DNA from: Roseithermus sacchariphilus
GTDB taxonomy: Bacteria; Bacteroidota; Rhodothermia; Rhodothermales; MEBIC09517
Reading direction: 5' to 3'
NCBI GenBank assembly: GCA_003285105.1
Contig: CP030158.1
Coordinates: forward strand, 1,960,501-2,024,500
Length of the DNA: 64,000 bases
The position numbers and the translations under genes are program-made. Within the stretch, counting starts at the first letter, position 1. Every line of letters starts with the position of its first letter. The notes under the pieces were generated by a model. That model did not search any database. It was not told the DNA's origin and worked only from the letters and a program-made list of their open reading frames with translations. This document shows, piece after piece, positions 44,319-54,707 of the stretch.

Positions 44319-44594
44319 ATGATCGATACGACGCGCACCGTTTCGGCCAGGGCCGATGTTACGATGGCTGATCTGGACGATGAGGCCGTCCTGCTCGATG
44401 TGGTGACCGGTCATTACTTTGGCCTCAACCCCGTAGGCCGACGCATCTGGACGCTGCTGGACCAGCCAAGGCGGATCGAGGAGCTGGTGGATGCGCTGGC
44501 AGATGAATACGAGGTGCCTCGTGCCGATCTGCAACGTGATGTCGTGGCGTTCCTGGAGCGGCTCCACACCAAAGGATTGATCACCCTCTCCTGA
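44319..44594 (+). CDS. PqqD-family RiPP recognition element (lasso B1-like)
   Basis: A protein of 91 residues with the PqqD winged-helix layout: strands DVTMADLDDEAVLLDVVTG and HYFGLNPVGRRIWTLLD, then RIEELVDALADEYEVPRADLQRDVVAFLERLHTKGLI. Stand-alone PqqD proteins bind the leader of a RiPP precursor and deliver it to processing enzymes; in lasso systems this is the B1 protein. It is the first gene of the cluster, 79 bases before the asparagine-synthetase-like gene. The 281-bp gap before it shows TTTG motifs but no promoter I can defend. Confidence 0.92.
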   Translation: MIDTTRTVSARADVTMADLDDEAVLLDVVTGHYFGLNPVGRRIWTLLDQPRRIEELVDALADEYEVPRADLQRDVVAFLERLHTKGLITLS

Positions 44595-44673: not shown

Positions 44674-46740
44674 GTGAGCGGCATAGTAGGGGTTTTTCAT
44701 CGAGATGGCGCTCCGGCCCGGCCGGACGAGTTGGAGCCGATGCTGGCCGCGATGGCACATCGCGGTCCTGATGGGATGCACCAGCACCTCGACGGACCCG
44801 TGGGCATGGGGCACGCCATGTTGTACACGACCCCGGAGTCGCTCCATGAACGGTTGCCGATGACCGATCCGAGCGGTCGTTACCTCCTGACCGCGGATGC
44901 TCGCGTCGATAACCGGGAGGAGCTGGCGCGCCGGCTCGGGTGGCCTGCGGGACGACTCACGGATGCGGTTCCGGATAGTCAGTTGATTCTGGAGGCGTAC
45001 AAGCGCTGGCAGGAGCGCGCCCTGGAATACATCCTGGGTGACTTTACGCTGGCTGTCTGGGACCGGATCGAACGACGGCTGGTGCTGGCTCGCGATCATC
45101 TGGGCATCCGTGTGCTGTACCTCTACTGTGCTCCTGATCTGCTGGTATGGGGCACGGAGATCAAGGCTGTACTGGCCCATCCACGGGTGCCCCGCTCCGT
45201 CAACGAGGCCCAGCTGGCCCGCTACCTGGCCGACGACTTTTCGCATCGCACCGAGACGGTCTTTCAGGGCATCGAGCGCGTTCCGGCGGCTACGATGGTG
45301 GTCGTCGAGCCCGGCCGGAGACAGCAGCGCACCTACTGGGAGTTGTCGATCCCTCCCGAAGACCCGTCCCTCAAAACTCCGGAAGACTATGTGGCGGCGT
45401 TTCGGGAGCATATGATGGAAGCCGTCCGCTGCCGTCTGCGCAGTGCGTATCCCGTAGGAACGCAACTCAGCGGGGGGCTCGATTCCTCGGTGGTGGCTGT
45501 TGCCGCGCGATGTGTTTTAGCGCAGACGGATCCGGCGGCGGCGTTGCGGACGTATTCTACCGTATTCGAGCGCGTCCCGAAGTCGGACGAACGGCCCTAC
45601 ATTGAGGCCGTGCTGGCAACCGGCGGTTTCGATCCGCGCTTCGTAGCAGGGGATGTTCCTGGTTTCATGGCCTGGCAGGATACGTTGTGGCGCTACGAGG
45701 ATGAGCCGCTCGTCAACCCCAACTACTACCTGACGTATGGCCTCAATGAACGGGCCCGGGCCGACGGGACGCGGATCATGCTGGGCGGTTTTGACGGCGA
45801 TACCGTGGTAGGCTACGGTCTCGAACGGTTCGCGGAGCTGGCCCGGCAGGAAGACTGGGCCGCGTTCGTGGGTAACGCCGACGCCGTTGCCACGCGCCGC
45901 CAGTGGGGCCCTCGGCGAGCCCGAGCCTTCTACTTCGAACGTTATGGCGGGTGGTATCTGGAAGATCTCGTGCGTCAAGGCCGCTGGTTGCGCTGGTGGC
46001 GGAACGTTACGGCGGTGGCCCGAGCAGCGGGGATGTCCCGGCGCTGGTTGGCGGTGCAGTATGGTGTTGATTCGCTGGCCAGGCATCTGATGCGCCGCTC
46101 GCAGGATGTCGTATCGGATGCGCCGGATCTGCTTCGGGAGGAGACTATAAAGCGCTATGGACTACGCCAAAAGCGCACCCCGATTGTCCGGAAGGCAGAT
46201 TTTTTTTCGGGTGATCTGCGCGATCTTCATCTACGTAAGTACGAGAACCCGTTCTTTTCCATTGGCCTGGAAGGCATCGAGCGCGCCTACGCAGCGTTCG
46301 GCATCGAAGCCCGGCATCCGTTCTTCGATATGCGGCTCGTGCAGTTCTGCCTGGGCATTCCGCCCGCCTGCAAACTGCGCGAGGGTTGGACCCGCTGGAT
46401 CCTGCGCGCAGCCTTTCGGGACTTCCTGCCGGCCATCGTCGTCGATCGCCCGCAAAAAGCCAGCCTGGCTCACAACTTCGTGTTCCAGGTCGGGCACGTC
46501 GAGAAAGAGGCGTTCGCCGGTGCGCTGAACACGGTGCTCGAGGAGGGTGCCGGCGGCCTGCTGCAGGCGGCGCCCGTGCGGAGTGCGTACGAACGGATCC
46601 GTCAGGGCCGTCCCGAGAGCGGCGATATCGGGCGCTTGTCCCGCGTGATGCTGGTTGCCGAGTGGCGCCGCCGCCATCCTGCGGTCGGCAACGCCGTGCA
46701 GCGCGCCACGCCGATGCCTTCTGGGACAACCGTGCATTAG
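44674..46740 (+). CDS. asparagine-synthetase-like macrolactam synthetase (lasso C-like)
   Basis: A protein of 688 residues from GTG 44674. It has the N-terminal class II glutaminase fold (SGIVGVFHRDG, HRGPDGMHQHL, GDFTLAVWD) and a C-terminal asparagine synthetase domain with the pyrophosphate loop SGGLDSS (S266-S272). The N-terminal Cys nucleophile of AsnB (MCGI) is Ser here (MSGI), so glutamine hydrolysis should not occur. Loss of this Cys is expected for lasso cyclases, which adenylate an Asp or Glu side chain and close a ring with the core's N-terminal amine. PqqD upstream and a precursor downstream support this role. A role in polysaccharide amidation is the main alternative. Confidence 0.88.
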   Translation: MSGIVGVFHRDGAPARPDELEPMLAAMAHRGPDGMHQHLDGPVGMGHAMLYTTPESLHERLPMTDPSGRYLLTADARVDNREELARRLGWPAGRLTDAVPDSQLILEAYKRWQERALEYILGDFTLAVWDRIERRLVLARDHLGIRVLYLYCAPDLLVWGTEIKAVLAHPRVPRSVNEAQLARYLADDFSHRTETVFQGIERVPAATMVVVEPGRRQQRTYWELSIPPEDPSLKTPEDYVAAFREHMMEAVRCRLRSAYPVGTQLSGGLDSSVVAVAARCVLAQTDPAAALRTYSTVFERVPKSDERPYIEAVLATGGFDPRFVAGDVPGFMAWQDTLWRYEDEPLVNPNYYLTYGLNERARADGTRIMLGGFDGDTVVGYGLERFAELARQEDWAAFVGNADAVATRRQWGPRRARAFYFERYGGWYLEDLVRQGRWLRWWRNVTAVARAAGMSRRWLAVQYGVDSLARHLMRRSQDVVSDAPDLLREETIKRYGLRQKRTPIVRKADFFSGDLRDLHLRKYENPFFSIGLEGIERAYAAFGIEARHPFFDMRLVQFCLGIPPACKLREGWTRWILRAAFRDFLPAIVVDRPQKASLAHNFVFQVGHVEKEAFAGALNTVLEEGAGGLLQAAPVRSAYERIRQGRPESGDIGRLSRVMLVAEWRRRHPAVGNAVQRATPMPSGTTVH

Positions 46741-46863: not shown

Positions 46864-46869
46864 GAGGTG
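46864..46869 (+). promoter_or_regulatory. ribosome-binding site of the precursor
   Basis: GAGGTG, four bases before the ATG at 46874. Strong Shine-Dalgarno sites are rare in this window, so its presence here suggests efficient translation of the precursor. Confidence 0.55.
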
Positions 46870-46873
46870 CTTC

Positions 46874-47101
46874 ATGAAGCAGTACGACACACCCCGTCTC
46901 ATCGAGTACGGTGAGGTACACAGCCTGACGTTCGCCTACGGTATCAACGGAGCCGAGGACTTTGTGTTTTCGGATCTGGACAGCGACGGCGAGTTCGATC
47001 CCGGCGAACCGACGGCCCCGACGCCCGATCTGCCGGGTTACTCGGGTTCGCAGCCCGGCTGCCTTTCGCCGGGTGGTGTGCCCTGCACTCCCAACCCCTG
47101 A
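46874..47101 (+). CDS. lasso-like RiPP precursor with EF-hand loop
   Basis: A peptide of 75 residues. The leader Y4-x2-P7-x-L9-x3-G13-x5-T19-x matches the lasso leader pattern YxxPxLxxxGxxxxxTx at every fixed position. Cleavage after F20 would give a core starting A21 with E28 and D29 at positions 8 and 9, the normal ring acceptors. The core would be 55 residues, far longer than the usual 15-25. Residues 34-45 (DLDSDGEFDPGE) form a canonical 12-residue EF-hand loop: acidic at 1, 3, 5, 7, 9 and 12, Gly at 6, Phe at 8. A Pro-rich tail with Cys63 and Cys71 follows. Two hairpins directly follow the stop codon. Confidence 0.85.
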   Translation: MKQYDTPRLIEYGEVHSLTFAYGINGAEDFVFSDLDSDGEFDPGEPTAPTPDLPGYSGSQPGCLSPGGVPCTPNP

Positions 47102-47116
47102 GACGGGTAGGTTCCT

Positions 47117-47142
47117 CGTGTATCCGGTCGTACGGGTACACG
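47117..47142 (+). other. stem-loop directly 3' of the precursor
   Basis: Arms CGTGTATCCG and CGGGTACACG pair over ten positions (one G-U) around a 6-nt loop. It has no U-tract and abuts the intrinsic terminator, so it may protect the precursor mRNA 3' end. Confidence 0.6.
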
Positions 47143-47144
47143 CA

Positions 47145-47180
47145 GCAAAAACCCCGGGTAGTCATGCCCGGGGTTTTTGC
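47145..47180 (+). terminator. intrinsic terminator between precursor and kinase genes
   Basis: A perfect 14-bp stem (arms GCAAAAACCCCGGG and CCCGGGGTTTTTGC) with an 8-nt loop; the T-run lies inside the second arm. It should terminate most transcripts after the precursor and, being symmetric, could work in both directions. Downstream genes would then be read by read-through or a separate promoter. Confidence 0.88.
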
Positions 47181-47298
47181 TGTTCTATCGGTATGTGCCG
47201 GGCGTAGACGTTCGTGGCGGAGCAGAGGCTTACGGGCGTGGATCTCCGGTTGTGGGTTTATTGTTTCTCCATCGGAGCCGATAAAAGGGGGGTTGGGG

Positions 47299-48225
47299 AT
47301 GGGCTCATCACAAGATCGGATCATGCATTTCTACCGCGCCTTCGGGCTTGCCATTGCGTCGGAAATCGAACTGCCGGAATTGCCGGTGAACGATGAGGGA
47401 GAACCTGACCTGTGCATTCGCAAGGCCCCCCTGTCCATCGAGGGCACGCTGGAACGGGGGCATCGTGTCGTCGGTACGTACGAAGCGTTTGGCAACATCT
47501 GGATCGATCGAGGGCGTGAGATCGTCATAGATCCCCATCCATCCATCGATCCGGCGAAGGTGCGCGTGGTGGTGCTGGGTCCGTTGCTGTCCATTGCGCT
47601 TCGCCAGCGAGGCTACATCGTGCTCCATGGAGGGTGTGCCGTGGTCCGGGGCCAGGCCGTGTGCTTCCTGGGGGACATGGGAGCCGGCAAGTCGACGACG
47701 ACGGCCGCGTTCTACAACGCAGGTTATTCCATCATGTCGGACGACGTGGTGGCGATCCGGGAGGAGGGGCGCCAGTTGCTCGTCTACCCCGGGTACCCCA
47801 GTATCAAGCTGCGCCCGGATGCGGCTCCGCACGTGCTTCACGACGGCGAGGAGGCGCCCTGGCTCTATCCCGAGGGCGTCCGGCGTCTCAAGCAAGCGGC
47901 TGCGTCGTTCCCGGACCGTCCCTGTTCTCTGCGCAAGGTGTATCTGCTGGGATGGGGGCCTGCGCTTTCCGTGGAGCCGGCCGGTGCGCAGGTAGCGTTG
48001 ATCAGCGTGCTCAAACATACCCGGGCGCTGCCCCACCTCGTGGATGCCGAGTACCGCACCCGGCATCTGCGCCAGAGCCAGCGACTGGTTCGGCGCGTGC
48101 CGGTAGCCCATCTGCGCCGCCCCCGCGACCTTGCCGTCCTGCCCGATGTCATTCGGGCGGTCGTAGAGGATGTGCAGTCCACCACGGGGCCTTCGGTGGC
48201 GTGCGTCAACGAAAGGAACCCCTGA
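47299..48225 (+). CDS. HPr-kinase-like P-loop protein (lasso kinase-like)
   Basis: A protein of 308 residues. The C-terminal half has the HprK fold with Walker A GDMGAGKST (125-133), then YSIMSDDVVAIREEG, which resembles the catalytic Asp region of HPr kinases. The N-terminal half (FYRAFGLAIASEIELPELPV) lacks the HprK regulatory domain and matches the pattern of RiPP-linked kinases. In paeninodin-type lasso clusters a related enzyme phosphorylates the C-terminal Ser of the peptide. The precursor here ends in Asn-Pro, so the target would have to be another residue (for example S57, S59 or S65). ATG 47299 follows an AAAAGGGGGG tract; ATG 47323 is an alternative. Confidence 0.85.
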   Translation: MGSSQDRIMHFYRAFGLAIASEIELPELPVNDEGEPDLCIRKAPLSIEGTLERGHRVVGTYEAFGNIWIDRGREIVIDPHPSIDPAKVRVVVLGPLLSIALRQRGYIVLHGGCAVVRGQAVCFLGDMGAGKSTTTAAFYNAGYSIMSDDVVAIREEGRQLLVYPGYPSIKLRPDAAPHVLHDGEEAPWLYPEGVRRLKQAAASFPDRPCSLRKVYLLGWGPALSVEPAGAQVALISVLKHTRALPHLVDAEYRTRHLRQSQRLVRRVPVAHLRRPRDLAVLPDVIRAVVEDVQSTTGPSVACVNERNP

Positions 48226-48239
48226 TAGCCACCGCTGCC

Positions 48240-50111
48240 GTGCGTATTCAGCAGAAAGGTCGAGAGGTACTGAATCAGCTTGCCCTCGTGCGGCCGGCGT
48301 TGGGCCTGATCTGGTCCTCGGCACGCGGATGGACCGTGATCTGGTTCGGGTTGCTGCTGCTACAGGGCGCCATTCCGGCCGGCATCGTGTACATGACCAA
48401 GGCCGTCGTCGATGCGGTGGCCGCCGTCGTGGGGGCGGGCGCCAGCGTGGATCTGGCCGGGACGCTGGCGATGCCGGTGCTGGCCATGGGAGGGTTGTTG
48501 CTCGCCCGGCAGCTCGTCGGCAGTGCCGCGCAGTACGTCAACACGGTGCAGAGCGAACTGGTGACGGACTTTGTCAAGGACCTGATCCATGCGAAGGCCG
48601 GGTCGGTGGATTACGGGTTCTACGAGTCGGATCGCTACTACGATCTCCTGGAACAGGCCAACAGCCAGGCCAGCGGAAGCGCGCTGGCGCTGTTGCAGAA
48701 CCTGGGCGGGTTGCTTCGCAGCGGGATTACGTTCGTCTCGATCGCGGCGCTGCTGATGACCTATAGCCTGTGGTTGCCGCTGGTGCTGGGCATCAGCACC
48801 ATTCCGGCGTTCGTGATCCTGGTGCGGCACAACCGGTATCATCACGACTGGTGGGAGCGCACCACGGCGGACCGTCGTCGTGCGAAGTACTACGACATCA
48901 TGTTAACCCAGCAAGCGGCCGCTGCGGAGGTACGCCTTTACAACCTCTCGGAGGTCTTTCGGGAGGCCTACCAGGCGGTTCGACGGCGGCTCCGCGCCGA
49001 GCGCCTGGCCCTGCTGCGCCGGCAGATGGCGGCGGGGCTGGGCGCCTCGCTGGTGGGGTTGGTCGTGACGGCCGGCACCATGGCCTGGATCGGGTGGAGG
49101 GCCGTGCTGGGGCTGGCCACACTGGGCGATCTGGCGCTCTTCTATCAGGCCTTCAACCAGGGGCAGAGCCTCATGGGGGCGCTCCTCAACAACATGGGGC
49201 AGATCTACACCAATACCCTTTTCATTCAACACCTCACCGACTTCCTCGATCAGGAAGCCCGGCTCATCGCGCCCGCCCGGCCCGTTCCCTTCCCGACCCC
49301 GATCCGTCAGGGCATCCGGTTCGAAGGCATCACCTTCCGCTATCCGGGGGCGGAGCGTCCGGCGCTGGACGCCTTCGACCTGGAACTCCCTGCTGGACAG
49401 ATCACGGCCATCGTGGGGGAAAACGGAGTCGGCAAGAGCACACTCATCAAGCTGCTCTGTCGTTTCTACGACCCGGAAGCCGGGCGGATCACCGTGGACG
49501 GCATCGATCTGCGTGATTTCGATCCGTGGGACCTGAGGCGGCATCTGTCCGTGATGTTTCAGTTTCCCGTGCGCTACCAGATGACGGCGCGGGAAAACAT
49601 TACGCTGGGGGACACCGAGCGGCCGGCCGATCTGGAGGCCATCCGGGGTGCGGCCCGCGAGGCCGGAGCGGATGAGTTCATCGAGCAAACGGCCCGTCAG
49701 TACGAGACATTGCTGGGGCGATGGTTCGCCGGGGGGACCGAACTCAGCGGCGGCCAGTGGCAGCGCATCGCCCTGGCTCGTGCCTTCTGGCGTCAGGCCC
49801 CCGTGCTGATCCTGGACGAGCCGACGAACTTCATGGATGCCTGGGCGGAGACCGAATGGGTGCGTCGCTTCCGTCGGCTGGCCCACGGACGGATCTCGCT
49901 GATGATCACCCATCGCTTCACCAGCGCCATGTATGCCGATGTCATCCACGTCATGGATCACAGCGGGATCGTGGAATCGGGTACGCACGATGAACTGGTA
50001 GCGCTCGGAGGGCGTTATGCAGCATCATGGAACGAACAGATGCAGGCACGCCGCCCGGACAAAGAGGCGTCCGCCGTGGAGACCGTGCCGCCCATCCGGC
50101 AGGACGCATGA
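48240..50111 (+). CDS. ABC exporter, fused permease-ATPase (lasso D-like)
   Basis: About 623 residues from GTG 48240; an upstream CTG at 48222 spaced from GAAAGGA is an alternative start. The N-terminal 320 residues hold about six membrane helices (VIWFGLLLLQGAIPAGIVYMTKAVVDAVA onward). The ATPase domain has Walker A GENGVGKST (K399), signature LSGGQWQRIALARAF (from L502) and Walker B VLILDEPTNFMDAWAE. There is no C39 peptidase domain, so it cannot remove the leader itself. In this context it should export the mature peptide. It follows the kinase gene by 14 bases and its stop overlaps the next start. Confidence 0.9.
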   Translation: MRIQQKGREVLNQLALVRPALGLIWSSARGWTVIWFGLLLLQGAIPAGIVYMTKAVVDAVAAVVGAGASVDLAGTLAMPVLAMGGLLLARQLVGSAAQYVNTVQSELVTDFVKDLIHAKAGSVDYGFYESDRYYDLLEQANSQASGSALALLQNLGGLLRSGITFVSIAALLMTYSLWLPLVLGISTIPAFVILVRHNRYHHDWWERTTADRRRAKYYDIMLTQQAAAAEVRLYNLSEVFREAYQAVRRRLRAERLALLRRQMAAGLGASLVGLVVTAGTMAWIGWRAVLGLATLGDLALFYQAFNQGQSLMGALLNNMGQIYTNTLFIQHLTDFLDQEARLIAPARPVPFPTPIRQGIRFEGITFRYPGAERPALDAFDLELPAGQITAIVGENGVGKSTLIKLLCRFYDPEAGRITVDGIDLRDFDPWDLRRHLSVMFQFPVRYQMTARENITLGDTERPADLEAIRGAAREAGADEFIEQTARQYETLLGRWFAGGTELSGGQWQRIALARAFWRQAPVLILDEPTNFMDAWAETEWVRRFRRLAHGRISLMITHRFTSAMYADVIHVMDHSGIVESGTHDELVALGGRYAASWNEQMQARRPDKEASAVETVPPIRQDA

Positions 50112-51223
50112 GAGGGATGACGGACCGCCACGCCTCGAGCGATCATGCCGTGGACCGACCTGCGTTTCAGGCGGTGGTGCTGGCTGCTCGGACCGTCCTG
50201 TCCGAAGCGGAGCAGGAACGATTGCGGTGTCTGGCAGCGGGGCCGCTGGACTGGAACGAGGTGGTGTGGTTGACGGGATACCATCAGGTAACGCCGCTCG
50301 TTTTGCGCAACCTGGAGCGCTACGTACGGGCCGCCGTTCCGGGCCGTCACCTGCGTGTGTTACAGGCAGAAACGCGTCGTATTGGCGTGCAGGGGCAATT
50401 CCTCCTGCAGGAACTGGGGCGCTTGATGCAGCGCTTCGAGGCGGCCGGCCTGCCGATGCTCGTGCTCAAGGGTCCGGTCATCGCACAGGTGGCCTACGGA
50501 CATCTCGGGCTACGGGCCTTCAAGGACATGGATATCCTCGTGCGTCCGGCGGATTATCCCGCGGTGCGCGCGTTGCTCGAACGGGAAGAGTACGTCCCCT
50601 TTCCGCAGGTGGCAGAACGGGCGCGCTGGCAACAATGGCTGCATCGCTGGTATGTGCGCCAGGTGCCGTTCATGCGGGGAGTCAAGACGTTCTATGTAGA
50701 CCTCCATCTGGCTCCGCTTCCCGCGCTGTACTATTTCCCGCTGGACGTGGAGACGTTGATGGAACGCGGTTCCAGCGAATCTATCGGACGGTTCGCTGTG
50801 CCGGTTCCGAAGCTGGAGGATCACCTCCTGATCCTGTGCTATCACGGCGAGAAAAACCGATGGGAACGCCTCAAATACGTCTGTGATCTGGCGGAACTGC
50901 TGAGGCGTCATGAGGACCGCATCGATTGGGATGAAATCGAAACCGTGACGCGCCGCATTCAGGGGCGGCGTATCGTGGGAATGGCCCTCTGGCTGGCCCG
51001 TGAGCTGATGGACGCTCCGGTACCGCCGGCCTTGCTGGCCCCGGTCCGGACGTCGCAGGCCGTGCGTGACCTGGGCAGCGAGTTGGTCCGGCGTCTTGCC
51101 GAACAGCGTGACACCGGCTTGTTGCCTTTTTCGGAGCGCGTCGCCCTGCACTGGCACCTTCAGGACTCGATCCTGAACAAACTGCGCTATGCGTTCTTTT
51201 CGATGGTTCGAACCATGTCTTGA
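50108..51223 (+). CDS. nucleotidyltransferase-family protein (PF14907-like), RiPP-linked
   Basis: About 371 residues; ATG 50108 overlaps the exporter stop as ATGA, and ATG 50117 is an alternative. The family signature is MLVLKGPVIAQVAYGHLGLRAFKDMDILVRPADYP, with the D140-x-D142 metal pair, followed by TFYVDLHLAPLP carrying the third acidic residue. It is related to the protein at 32884 in layout and motif. Genes of this family occur in many lasso clusters with HPr-type kinases, where a nucleotidyl transfer to the phosphorylated peptide or a carrier has been suggested; the reaction is not established. It is the last gene before a 368-bp gap. Confidence 0.82.
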   Translation: MRGMTDRHASSDHAVDRPAFQAVVLAARTVLSEAEQERLRCLAAGPLDWNEVVWLTGYHQVTPLVLRNLERYVRAAVPGRHLRVLQAETRRIGVQGQFLLQELGRLMQRFEAAGLPMLVLKGPVIAQVAYGHLGLRAFKDMDILVRPADYPAVRALLEREEYVPFPQVAERARWQQWLHRWYVRQVPFMRGVKTFYVDLHLAPLPALYYFPLDVETLMERGSSESIGRFAVPVPKLEDHLLILCYHGEKNRWERLKYVCDLAELLRRHEDRIDWDEIETVTRRIQGRRIVGMALWLARELMDAPVPPALLAPVRTSQAVRDLGSELVRRLAEQRDTGLLPFSERVALHWHLQDSILNKLRYAFFSMVRTMS

Positions 51224-51591: not shown

Positions 51592-54000
51592 ATGTACGGG
51601 GATCGCAGCAACCATCCGGGGTTTCCCCAGCGTCATCCGGGCCTGCCGCCCATGCCGCCCGTGCCGGGCACGAACGGCCGGGCCGGCTGGTACCGTTCCG
51701 GCAAGCAGCAGGTCGAGCTGGTCATCGACCTGCTCTACCGGCGCCGCTGGAGCATCCTGATGGTGTTCCTGCTGGTGGTGGGCGGCACCGCCGCCTACAC
51801 CTTCACGCGCGTGCCGCAGTACCAGGCGACGAGCTACGTCATGATCGACCTGGCGCAGACCGGCGGGCGGGGCACCTCGTCGGCGAGCGGGATGATGCCG
51901 GGCGTGGCCGGGCAGAGCAGCAACCTCTTTGCCACGGCCCGATCCATCAGCAGCGAGATCCAGCTGCTGCAGATCTCGGATGAACTCCGCAGCCGGGTCT
52001 ACGACCGCTTCGAGGCCATGCGCGAGGACACCGTCGATGGCCGGCCCGTGCCCCGTGGCACCGTCAGCTTCGGCGAGTTGCGCGGCGGCAACAACATCAT
52101 CCAGATGACCGGCACCAGCGCGCGCCCCGAGGATGCCGCCATTCTGGCCAACCTCTACGCGCAGGAGTACGTGCTCCTGACGCGGGAGTCCAACCGCAGC
52201 TACATCACCTCGCTGCGGAAGTCCCTCGAAGAACGGGAGCGCCAGCGCCGGGCCGAGCTGGACGAGATCGAGGCCCGCATGCAGCGGTACGTCATCGAGA
52301 ACGGCGCCGTGAACCTGGACCAGGGGGCCATGGGCCTCGTCATGCAGATCGCCAATCTGGAGTCGGAGCTGGACAAGGCGCAGATCGAGTTGCAGGCCCG
52401 CCGGAAAAACCTGGCGACGCTGGAGGAGGAGCTGAAAACCACGGACGAACGGGCGCTGACGCGCATGACGTCGAACGCGGACGCGCGCATCCAGCAACTG
52501 CAGACGCGCATCGCGGAGCTGGAGGCCCAGCGATCGGCCATCCTGCTCAACAACCCGGAACTGCGCGAGAACCCCACCGAAACCCCGTCCTCCGTGGACC
52601 AGCAGCGGCTGGCCAACATCAACCAGAGCATCCAGACCCTGCGGCGGGAGCTCACCGAGCTGACCGAGCAATACCTCCAGGAGGTCGAGGCCACCGAAGG
52701 CAACCGCGATGGGCTGACCTTCCTGGTCAGCAAGCGCCAGCAGGTCAATGTGGCGCGCCACAAGGTCGACTCGCTGGAGACGCAGGTGAGCCAGATCCAG
52801 AACCGGCTGGCCGAGTACGAAAAGGAGATGGACCGCGTGCCGCAGCAGACCATCGAGTATGCCCGGCTGGAACGGGAGCGGCTGCATGCGGAGCAGATGT
52901 ACAACTACATCGTCAACCAGCTCCAGCAGGCCCGCATCCAGGAAGAAGCCGAGCCGGGCTACGCGCGCATCCTGCGCACCGCCACGGTCCCCTCCGAGCC
53001 GGTCTACCCGGACAAGCCGCGCAACCTGATCCTGGGGGCGTTCCTGGGACTGCTCTTCGGGCTGGGGCTGGGCATCCTCCGCGATAAGCTGGACGGCCGC
53101 ATCTTCAAGCCGGATCAGCTCCGGGACAAAGGGTATACCGACCTCGGGATTATTCCCAACCTCAAGCCGCTGATCAAGGAGGATTTCCAGAAGCGGGAGT
53201 TTCTGGAGTACCGCGGCAAGACCTACGCCACGAGTCTGGTGACGCTGTTCAACCCGATGTCGGCGCCGGCCGAGGCATACCGGCACGTACGGACCCACCT
53301 CAAGCATCTCTCGCCCGAGGCGGAACCCCGGACGATCCTCGTCACGAGCGCGAGCCCGTCGGAAGGCAAGTCGCTCAACGCGGCCAACCTGGCGATCACC
53401 ATGGCGCAGGCGGGCAAGCGCACGCTGCTGATCGACGCGGACCTGCGGCGGCCGCAGCAGCACCGGCTGCTGGGGGCCGAGCCGGCGCCCGGGCTGGCGG
53501 AGATCCTCCACGGGAAGGTGGAGTTCAGCGGAGATCTGCTCCGTACGGACATCGACCACCTGTATCTGATGGTGGCCGGAAGCTGCGCGATGGAGCCGGA
53601 CGAGAACGAGCCGTCGCTGCATCCGGAGGAGCCCGTCTTCAAGCCGGCCGAACTGCTCAACTCGCCGCGTATGGAGACGCTGCTGGAGACGGCGGCCGAG
53701 GCCTTCGACGTGGTCATCATCGATTCCCCGCCGGTGCTGGCCACGGCCGATCCGGCCATTCTGGCCCCGCTCTGCGATGTCACGGTGATCGTGGTACGGG
53801 CCGGTGAGACCCGCGAGGCCGAACTCGACCAGGCCGTCGAGGCGCTCACGCGCGTCCGGGCACGCGTCGGGGGGATTCTCTTCAACGGCTTTGCGCTGGA
53901 GATGGCCTACGGGACCAAGTACCGGTACAAGAGCTACTCCAAGTACGGGCCGTACTCGAAGTACGGCTATTACGGCTACCGCAAAAAGACCCCGGCCTGA
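51592..54000 (+). CDS. Wzc-type polysaccharide co-polymerase and tyrosine autokinase
   Basis: A protein of 802 residues. The Wzz domain is framed by two membrane helices (SILMVFLLVVGGTAAYTF near 60 and LILGAFLGLLFGLGLGIL near 480), with a long periplasmic coiled coil between them. The cytoplasmic BY-kinase has Walker A SEGKS (K593), Walker A' TLLIDADLRRPQ and Walker B VVIIDSPP. The last 30 residues contain ten tyrosines (YRYKSYSKYGPYSKYGYYGY), the autophosphorylation cluster. It should control polymer length and export through cycling of oligomers. It is the first gene after a 368-bp gap and likely begins a new transcription unit. Confidence 0.95.
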   Translation: MYGDRSNHPGFPQRHPGLPPMPPVPGTNGRAGWYRSGKQQVELVIDLLYRRRWSILMVFLLVVGGTAAYTFTRVPQYQATSYVMIDLAQTGGRGTSSASGMMPGVAGQSSNLFATARSISSEIQLLQISDELRSRVYDRFEAMREDTVDGRPVPRGTVSFGELRGGNNIIQMTGTSARPEDAAILANLYAQEYVLLTRESNRSYITSLRKSLEERERQRRAELDEIEARMQRYVIENGAVNLDQGAMGLVMQIANLESELDKAQIELQARRKNLATLEEELKTTDERALTRMTSNADARIQQLQTRIAELEAQRSAILLNNPELRENPTETPSSVDQQRLANINQSIQTLRRELTELTEQYLQEVEATEGNRDGLTFLVSKRQQVNVARHKVDSLETQVSQIQNRLAEYEKEMDRVPQQTIEYARLERERLHAEQMYNYIVNQLQQARIQEEAEPGYARILRTATVPSEPVYPDKPRNLILGAFLGLLFGLGLGILRDKLDGRIFKPDQLRDKGYTDLGIIPNLKPLIKEDFQKREFLEYRGKTYATSLVTLFNPMSAPAEAYRHVRTHLKHLSPEAEPRTILVTSASPSEGKSLNAANLAITMAQAGKRTLLIDADLRRPQQHRLLGAEPAPGLAEILHGKVEFSGDLLRTDIDHLYLMVAGSCAMEPDENEPSLHPEEPVFKPAELLNSPRMETLLETAAEAFDVVIIDSPPVLATADPAILAPLCDVTVIVVRAGETREAELDQAVEALTRVRARVGGILFNGFALEMAYGTKYRYKSYSKYGPYSKYGYYGYRKKTPA

Positions 54001-54191
54001 GCGTGCCGGAGTTGGGTGCTTCGAGCGGGGCGGCTGTATGCGCTCCCGGAGGGCCGGTCATCGTACCGGCCCTCCCGATGTCGGCCCCCTTCGCCCCCGG
54101 TGTGCGCTCGCAGGGGCCCTCTCGTCCCACGGACGACGCCACATGCAGGCCCGTCCTTAAGAAACCGTTCAGCCGGTCGAAACGCAGGAGC

Positions 54192-54707
54192 ATGAAGAAC
54201 GCCGCACGTATCTGGGTACTCGTCCTGCTCGGGATGGCCGGGCTGCAGGGGCCGGAGGCCCGGGCCCAGGAGTTTGGCCGCATCGGAGATTATGAGATCC
54301 AGGGTGTGCCGTACGTCGTGTTCGCCAAGGTCGGCGAGCCCACGGTGCAGGTGTATGTGGTCGGCACGGCCGGGACGGGCCTGTACGAGGTGGGGGCGTC
54401 GACGGACCTGGTGCGGCTGTTCACCTTTGCCGGGGGTACCGTGCCGGCCAACACCCGCACGGTCCGGCGCGAGGTGACCGTGCGGGTGTATCGCCTGCAG
54501 GGCGGCGTGCGCCAGGTCGTCTACGAAGCCCCGGCGCTGGAGATGATTTCCCAGCCGGGCGGGACACCGGCCCTGCAGGACGGCGACGTGATGGTCATCG
54601 AGGCGGTGGAGGAGCCGAAACAGCGCTTCACCTGGCGCGAAGGGCTCCAGATTCTGACCTCGGCGGCCTCCATCGTCTTGCTCATCGATCGGCTGCGCCG
54701 GCTGTAA
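54192..54707 (+). CDS. SLBB-domain exported protein
   Basis: A protein of 171 residues with a signal peptide (IWVLVLLGMAGLQGPEARA). The middle has an SLBB-type beta-grasp pattern: VQVYVVGTAGTGLYEVGASTDLVRLFTFAGG, then VTVRVYRLQGG and PALQDGDVMVIEAVEEP. A C-terminal hydrophobic segment (LQILTSAASIVLLIDRLRRL) may anchor it. SLBB domains form the periplasmic wall of Wza-type export channels. This protein lacks the Poly_export domain of Wza, so it may be an accessory ring subunit. It lies between the Wzc kinase and the ABC transporter. Confidence 0.7.
   Translation: MKNAARIWVLVLLGMAGLQGPEARAQEFGRIGDYEIQGVPYVVFAKVGEPTVQVYVVGTAGTGLYEVGASTDLVRLFTFAGGTVPANTRTVRREVTVRVYRLQGGVRQVVYEAPALEMISQPGGTPALQDGDVMVIEAVEEPKQRFTWREGLQILTSAASIVLLIDRLRRL

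Follow-up and report, generated by a model that had tools for sequence, protein, structure and literature searches.

A 75-residue open reading frame of Roseithermus sacchariphilus likely codes for a long-core RiPP precursor of the lasso type, and its identity as a lasso-type precursor is well supported by sequence comparison. The gene lies in a stretch of 64,000 nucleotides, here called the window, of the single 4.8 Mb contig of the host genome, and the enzyme families encoded around it are those of lasso biosynthesis and syntenic with related loci. Its leader and the acidic residue D29 are conserved in relatives, from which the calcium-like loop of its tail is absent. Going by the protein families, B1 (RRE) would bind the Y-P-L-G leader and a B2 cysteine protease, whose gene lies 1.7 Mb from the cluster, would cut after F20; the cyclase would close a nine-residue ring between the amino group of A21 and the D29 side chain, leaving a tail of 46 residues. 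The HprK-like kinase and the nucleotidyltransferase may decorate the product, which the ABC transporter would export. The DLDSDGEFDPGE segment of the tail would be an elaboration, specific to the lineage, of the turn or linker that follows the ring; it resembles extracellular Dx[DN]xDG calcium loops and could bind Ca2+ weakly, and it is not the family's conserved functional core. The features are listed in Table 1.

Table 1. Features of the precursor gene and its surroundings (window positions unless another contig or locus is given).
Feature	Position	Strand	Basis
B1, PqqD/RRE-type leader-binding protein	44319..44594	+	Pfam PqqD 4.2e-25; best NCBIfam model lasso_PqqD_Bac NF033536
C, predicted lasso macrolactam (isopeptide-forming) cyclase, asparagine-synthetase family	44674..46740	+	NF033535 583.6 bits, cut-off 525
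Ribosome-binding site GAGGTG	46864..46869	+	read from sequence; 4 nt before precursor ATG
A, putative precursor peptide, 75 aa	46874..47101	+	NF033528 30.1 bits; leader and D29 columns in alignment
Leader, residues 1-20 (Y4 P7 L9 G13 T19)	46874..46933	+	invariant or nearly invariant alignment columns
Predicted nine-residue macrolactam ring, A21 to D29	46934..46960	+	D29 invariance; D at core 9 in 93/101
Dx[DN]xDG-type loop, residues 34-45, core 14-25	46973..47008	+	translation, motif scans
C-terminal cysteine pair C63...C71	47060..47086	+	pair recurs in Rhodothermales and cyanobacterial relatives
19-pair hairpin, U-run within 3' arm	47142..47183	+	region z -7.85; just 3' of precursor gene
HprK-like kinase	47299..48225	+	weak family scores; relative in 72/79 cyclase loci
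ABC exporter	48225..50111	+	start codon provisional; 59% identity to transporter of Rhodothermales locus L261
NTP_transf_5 nucleotidyltransferase-like protein	50117..51223	+	Pfam PF14907 2.5e-51; start by eye, ORF open from 50027
Wzc/Wzz-type polysaccharide co-polymerase, tyrosine autokinase domain	51592..54000	+	family matches; comparison with L261-L263
Conserved protein beside Wzc, no Pfam family	54003..54707	+	also adjoins lasso clusters of L261-L263
Stand-alone lasso B2 peptidase	G000:C1 about 3726695-3727222 (L150 5696-6223)	minus	NF033537 match

The precursor gene and its cassette

Translation of the window gives exact coordinates for the precursor gene (46874-47101, plus strand) and the product MKQYDTPRLIEYGEVHSLTFAYGINGAEDFVFSDLDSDGEFDPGEPTAPTPDLPGYSGSQPGCLSPGGVPCTPNP. 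GC content by codon position is similar to that of the adjoining genes, and the open reading frame is very probably a real gene. Sequence searches, plasmids included, revealed nothing closely homologous to this particular precursor; plasmid sequences searched with the precursor gave no convincing match, and Pfam and PDB searches with the core or the loop gave none. The hairpin downstream of the gene is a probable terminator or processing signal, which the terminator scan missed because the U-run sits within the stem. Being very stable and located between the precursor and kinase genes, it may perhaps tune precursor over enzyme expression.

The cassette in the window has the order B1–cyclase–A–HprK-like kinase–ABC–nucleotidyltransferase. 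Across 79 loci surrounding relatives of the cyclase, which are mostly cyanobacterial but come in part from several further phyla and from archaea, relatives of B1 were present in 75, of the HprK-like kinase in 72, of the ABC transporter in 53 and of the nucleotidyltransferase in 35. As a single-sequence query the cyclase had no match in the genome contigs, whereas an alignment query did find relatives. The cyclase exceeds the curated cut-off of the lasso model NF033535, carries Ser2 instead of the glutaminase Cys, and has S266, G267, G268, D270 and S271 in invariant columns of the cyclase alignment. Three asparagine-synthase-like genes are located elsewhere in the genome, in which only one gene matches the lasso cyclase model strongly. 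B1 passes the Pfam PqqD cut-off and falls short of the lasso-specific NCBIfam models (71.6 bits against a cut-off of 80 for lasso_PqqD_Bac, NF033536). A similar PqqD protein (TIGR04353, 30.4 versus a cut-off of 35) and kinase (TIGR04352, 31.8 versus a cut-off of 200) are known from the HPr-rel-A system, both scores lying under the cut-offs; unlike that system, the window encodes a lasso cyclase and a precursor.

The B2 peptidase is absent from the window cluster. In relatives it is often placed between B1 and the cyclase, as in the Rhodothermales locus L261, where the open reading frame at this position scores 86.9 bits as lasso_biosyn_B2. The gap between B1 and the cyclase in the window is merely 79 bp, so B2 is not located there. 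The sole B2 over the cut-off in the host genome (NF033537, 58.7 bits), 1.7 Mb from the cluster, would then serve it in trans. This lone gene, at about 3.7267 Mb, adjoins cytochrome oxidase-like genes, the neighbours being named by sequence.

Leader, ring acceptor and long core

From the loci analysed we collected 166 distinct precursors by leader pattern and an acidic residue at core positions 7-10, a pattern-based selection that may include a few false entries. Their cores comprise at least 30 residues in 101 cases, referred to here as long-core precursors, and at least 40 in 69. An alignment of 21 long-core members, picked by hand, confirmed the original prediction of a lasso leader: M1, Y4, P7, G13, T19 and D29 are invariant and L9 is nearly so. 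The precursor has the conserved Y..P and G of lasso leaders, Thr at position -2 and, with D29 at core position 9, an acidic acceptor within core positions 7-9. Both E28 and D29 had been put forward as ring acceptors. D29 is invariant in the 21 sequences, and Asp occupies core position 9 in 93 of the 101 long-core precursors, in a collection that demanded D or E at core 7-10, which together identify D29 as the likely acceptor. E28 is not conserved in the 21-member alignment and was ruled out.

Characterised lassos are short and have been studied mostly as antibiotics. The 55-residue core had been considered far beyond normal lasso size, which is correct in comparison with these peptides but not within the subfamily, where cores of 40-58 residues are common. 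With cores of at least 40 residues in 69 of the 166 collected precursors, a long core is thus a habit of the subfamily and not a peculiarity of the window. In long-core tails, an F-x-F-x-[ND]G turn usually follows the ring; a variable linker comes next, then GSxD and often two cysteines. The closest described group is NF033528 (lasso_cyano), whose cyanobacterial members share with the window precursor the leader pattern, Asp at core position 9 and a long core with GSxD and a Cys pair, and whose clusters share the B1-(B2)-C-A-K-ABC-NTP neighbourhood. The window member differs from them in its Rhodothermales host, a cluster without B2 and the sole DxDxDGxxDxxE string. By its score of 30.1 bits over residues 2-32, under the curated cut-off of 33, it falls outside formal membership of NF033528.

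Instead of the full-length core, the mature product might consist of the ring and a short tail, the acidic, Cys-containing rest being a follower removed after export or threading. Characterised lassos are far shorter, and many relatives of the cyclase act on cores of 15-30 residues. However, long-core members from different phyla share the GSxD and Cys-pair region, dispersed precursor copies in two Rhodothermales genomes (G008 and G031) keep the core better than the leader, and no additional protease was seen in the cluster, which makes such trimming unlikely. It is quite unlikely, too, that the peptide is cyclised and remains unthreaded as a branched-cyclic product. Threading is unreadable from sequence, and such a long tail might not stay through the ring, but to our knowledge this cyclase family has yielded lassos wherever its products have been characterised.

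Modification of the proposed long-core lasso peptide may differ from known examples. HprK-like kinase and NTP_transf_5 genes also lie by the lasso genes in paeninodin- and pseudomycoidin-type clusters; HprK homologues of known lasso clusters phosphorylate a C-terminal Ser, and the pseudomycoidin nucleotidyltransferase adds hexoses (PMC8498205). Unlike the Ser target of these clusters, the window core ends in ...CTPNP, and the HprK-like kinase must therefore have a different target or role. The last residue of long-core precursors is Pro in 28 and Ser in only seven of 101.

Scattered precursor copies were observed on several contigs (L216-L219, L256, L266 at 8384 and 15626, L259, and L272 at 10285), with five dispersed copies in G008, three in G031 and one in G021. 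In the two surroundings examined (L266 and L272), neither cyclase, B1, B2 nor exporter was found. The cores of the dispersed G008 and G031 copies are nearly identical, whereas their leaders are divergent.

The calcium-like loop in the tail

Residues 34-45, which read DLDSDGEFDPGE and were originally described as a textbook EF-hand loop, have ligand-type residues at loop positions 1, 3, 5, 9 and 12 and Gly at position 6. When the tail was shuffled, the strict string DxDxDGxxDxxE did not arise (0 of 200,000) and a relaxed EF-like string arose in 0.15%, for a motif chosen post hoc. The back-translated pattern D.[DN].[DN]G..D.GE gave seven matches in the genome versus none when reversed. The matches outside the precursor are found in open frames of 212-1012 codons, and one such large-protein site, FSDLNENGEWDEGEP, resembles FSDLDSDGEFDPGEP of the window precursor. 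Given the rarity in shuffles, the genome matches and the similar host sites, the string resembles a true Dx[DN]xDG-type loop.

While the string itself stands, its sequence and modelled structure indicate that it is not a canonical EF-hand. Position 8 of EF-hand loops is usually Ile, Leu or Val. The window loop has F at this position, P and G at 10-11 and P after E12; PROSITE PS00018 does not match the precursor, being broken by the F at position 8 and the P after position 12. Besides the lack of a Pfam match, no helix flanks the loop in the AlphaFold model, which is of low confidence in this region (pLDDT about 50). The motif Dx[DN]xDG occurs in many non-EF-hand contexts and binds Ca2+ there (PMC3123361). 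Loops of this kind, in thrombospondin type 3 and subtilisin insertions, agree with the window at D34-x-D36-x-D38-G39 and in having acidic residues at positions 9 and 12 (PMC3123361); they differ from it in that the putative loop has no surrounding folded domain, carries Phe at position 8 and is unconserved.

DxDxDGxxDxxE was found in one of the 101 long-core precursors, the window's own, among relatives that include no other genome of the host's own family. The Rhodothermales relatives G008 and G031 have DQSFDVDGNVIEEG, and a G021 copy distant from its own cyclase has DVLVDVNGTVIATD. No calcium-like motif was detected in G046 or the remaining G021 copies, and relatives closest to the window within Rhodothermales show a DV[DN]G turn at most. 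The alignment of this region is ambiguous: as computed, GEFD of the window faces GSxD of the relatives, whereas by eye DxDG pairs with the [DN]G turn after the ring. Among the precursors collected, the loop is a genuine sequence feature private to the window precursor. Since no relative has the motif, a calcium-binding role is just a possibility.

Similar strings occur in Moorena paralogues, many copies of which, probably of one origin, carry C-terminal DCDNNGNCxPF or DCDNNGNCDPF at core position 31, and in a precursor of Calothrix PCC 7103 (DTNGDGVNDAIT at core position 25). They occupy other tail positions and are not necessarily related to the window loop, and a conserved calcium loop was accordingly ruled out. 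An excess of Dx[DN]x[DN]G across the family (12 versus 1.1 expected) was set aside as evidence, being mostly due to the Moorena-type paralogues. In the tandem copies of this type (L041, L042, L220, L223, L224 and L246), DCDNNGNC places two Cys inside the DxDxNG string.

If the tail truly bound Ca2+ through the DxDxDG loop, the macrolactam peptide might be secreted into acidic exopolysaccharide and bridge it. Such a role would fit the rarity of the string by chance, the same loop type in large host proteins such as the one with FSDLNENGEWDEGEP, the binding of Ca2+ by Dx[DN]xDG loops in many non-EF contexts (PMC3123361) and the position of the cluster inside a polysaccharide locus with Wzc, pyruvyltransferase and sulfotransferase. 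We nevertheless regard it as very unlikely, because none of the other collected precursors has the loop, Rhodothermales relatives of the same locus type show DVDG or nothing, known Dx[DN]xDG loops belong to folded proteins, and the window loop has F at position 8, P and G at 10-11 and, in a model of low confidence, no secondary structure on either side. The comparison of homologues proposed with the original prediction supports conservation of the leader and not of the acidic loop positions, and the idea of a new, calcium-binding type of peptide is unproven and weakened. The loop would matter only if binding were shown.

Linkage to polysaccharide export

In the three other Rhodothermales whose long cores adjoin a cyclase (L261, L262 and L263), the gene order is Wzc–conserved protein–B1–(B2)–cyclase–precursor–kinase–ABC–NTP, and a Glycos_transf_4 (WecA-like) protein precedes B1 in two of the three. 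In the window, Wzc and the conserved protein of the same type were found downstream of the cassette. Linkage of this kind is present in all four of the examined Rhodothermales that have long-core clusters, the window included, and no Wzc match was found in the short-core Rhodothermales clusters examined. Among contig-collection loci that span 13 kb or more, six of 14 long-core and one of 23 short-core clusters have a Wzc relative nearby (Fisher p = 0.007, uncorrected for shared ancestry).

The linkage to Wzc hints at a role of long-core products on the cell surface or within the exopolysaccharide layer or matrix, and is perhaps more telling than the calcium loop. The literature searched, with few subscription papers in scope, reported neither a calcium-binding lasso nor a lasso cluster tied to Wzc. 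With its GSxD, Cys pair, Asp9 ring and linkage to polysaccharide export, the widespread long-core group would indicate that lasso chemistry can serve a structural or surface role. It is highly unlikely that the window product is a long-core macrolactam peptide whose tail carries a working calcium loop and which serves as a structural or regulatory matrix component from an exopolysaccharide export locus. For the acidic matrix that had been envisaged, linkage to the export locus provides only circumstantial backing, and the window region additionally carries a sulfotransferase, a polysaccharide pyruvyltransferase and a capsule-type protein.
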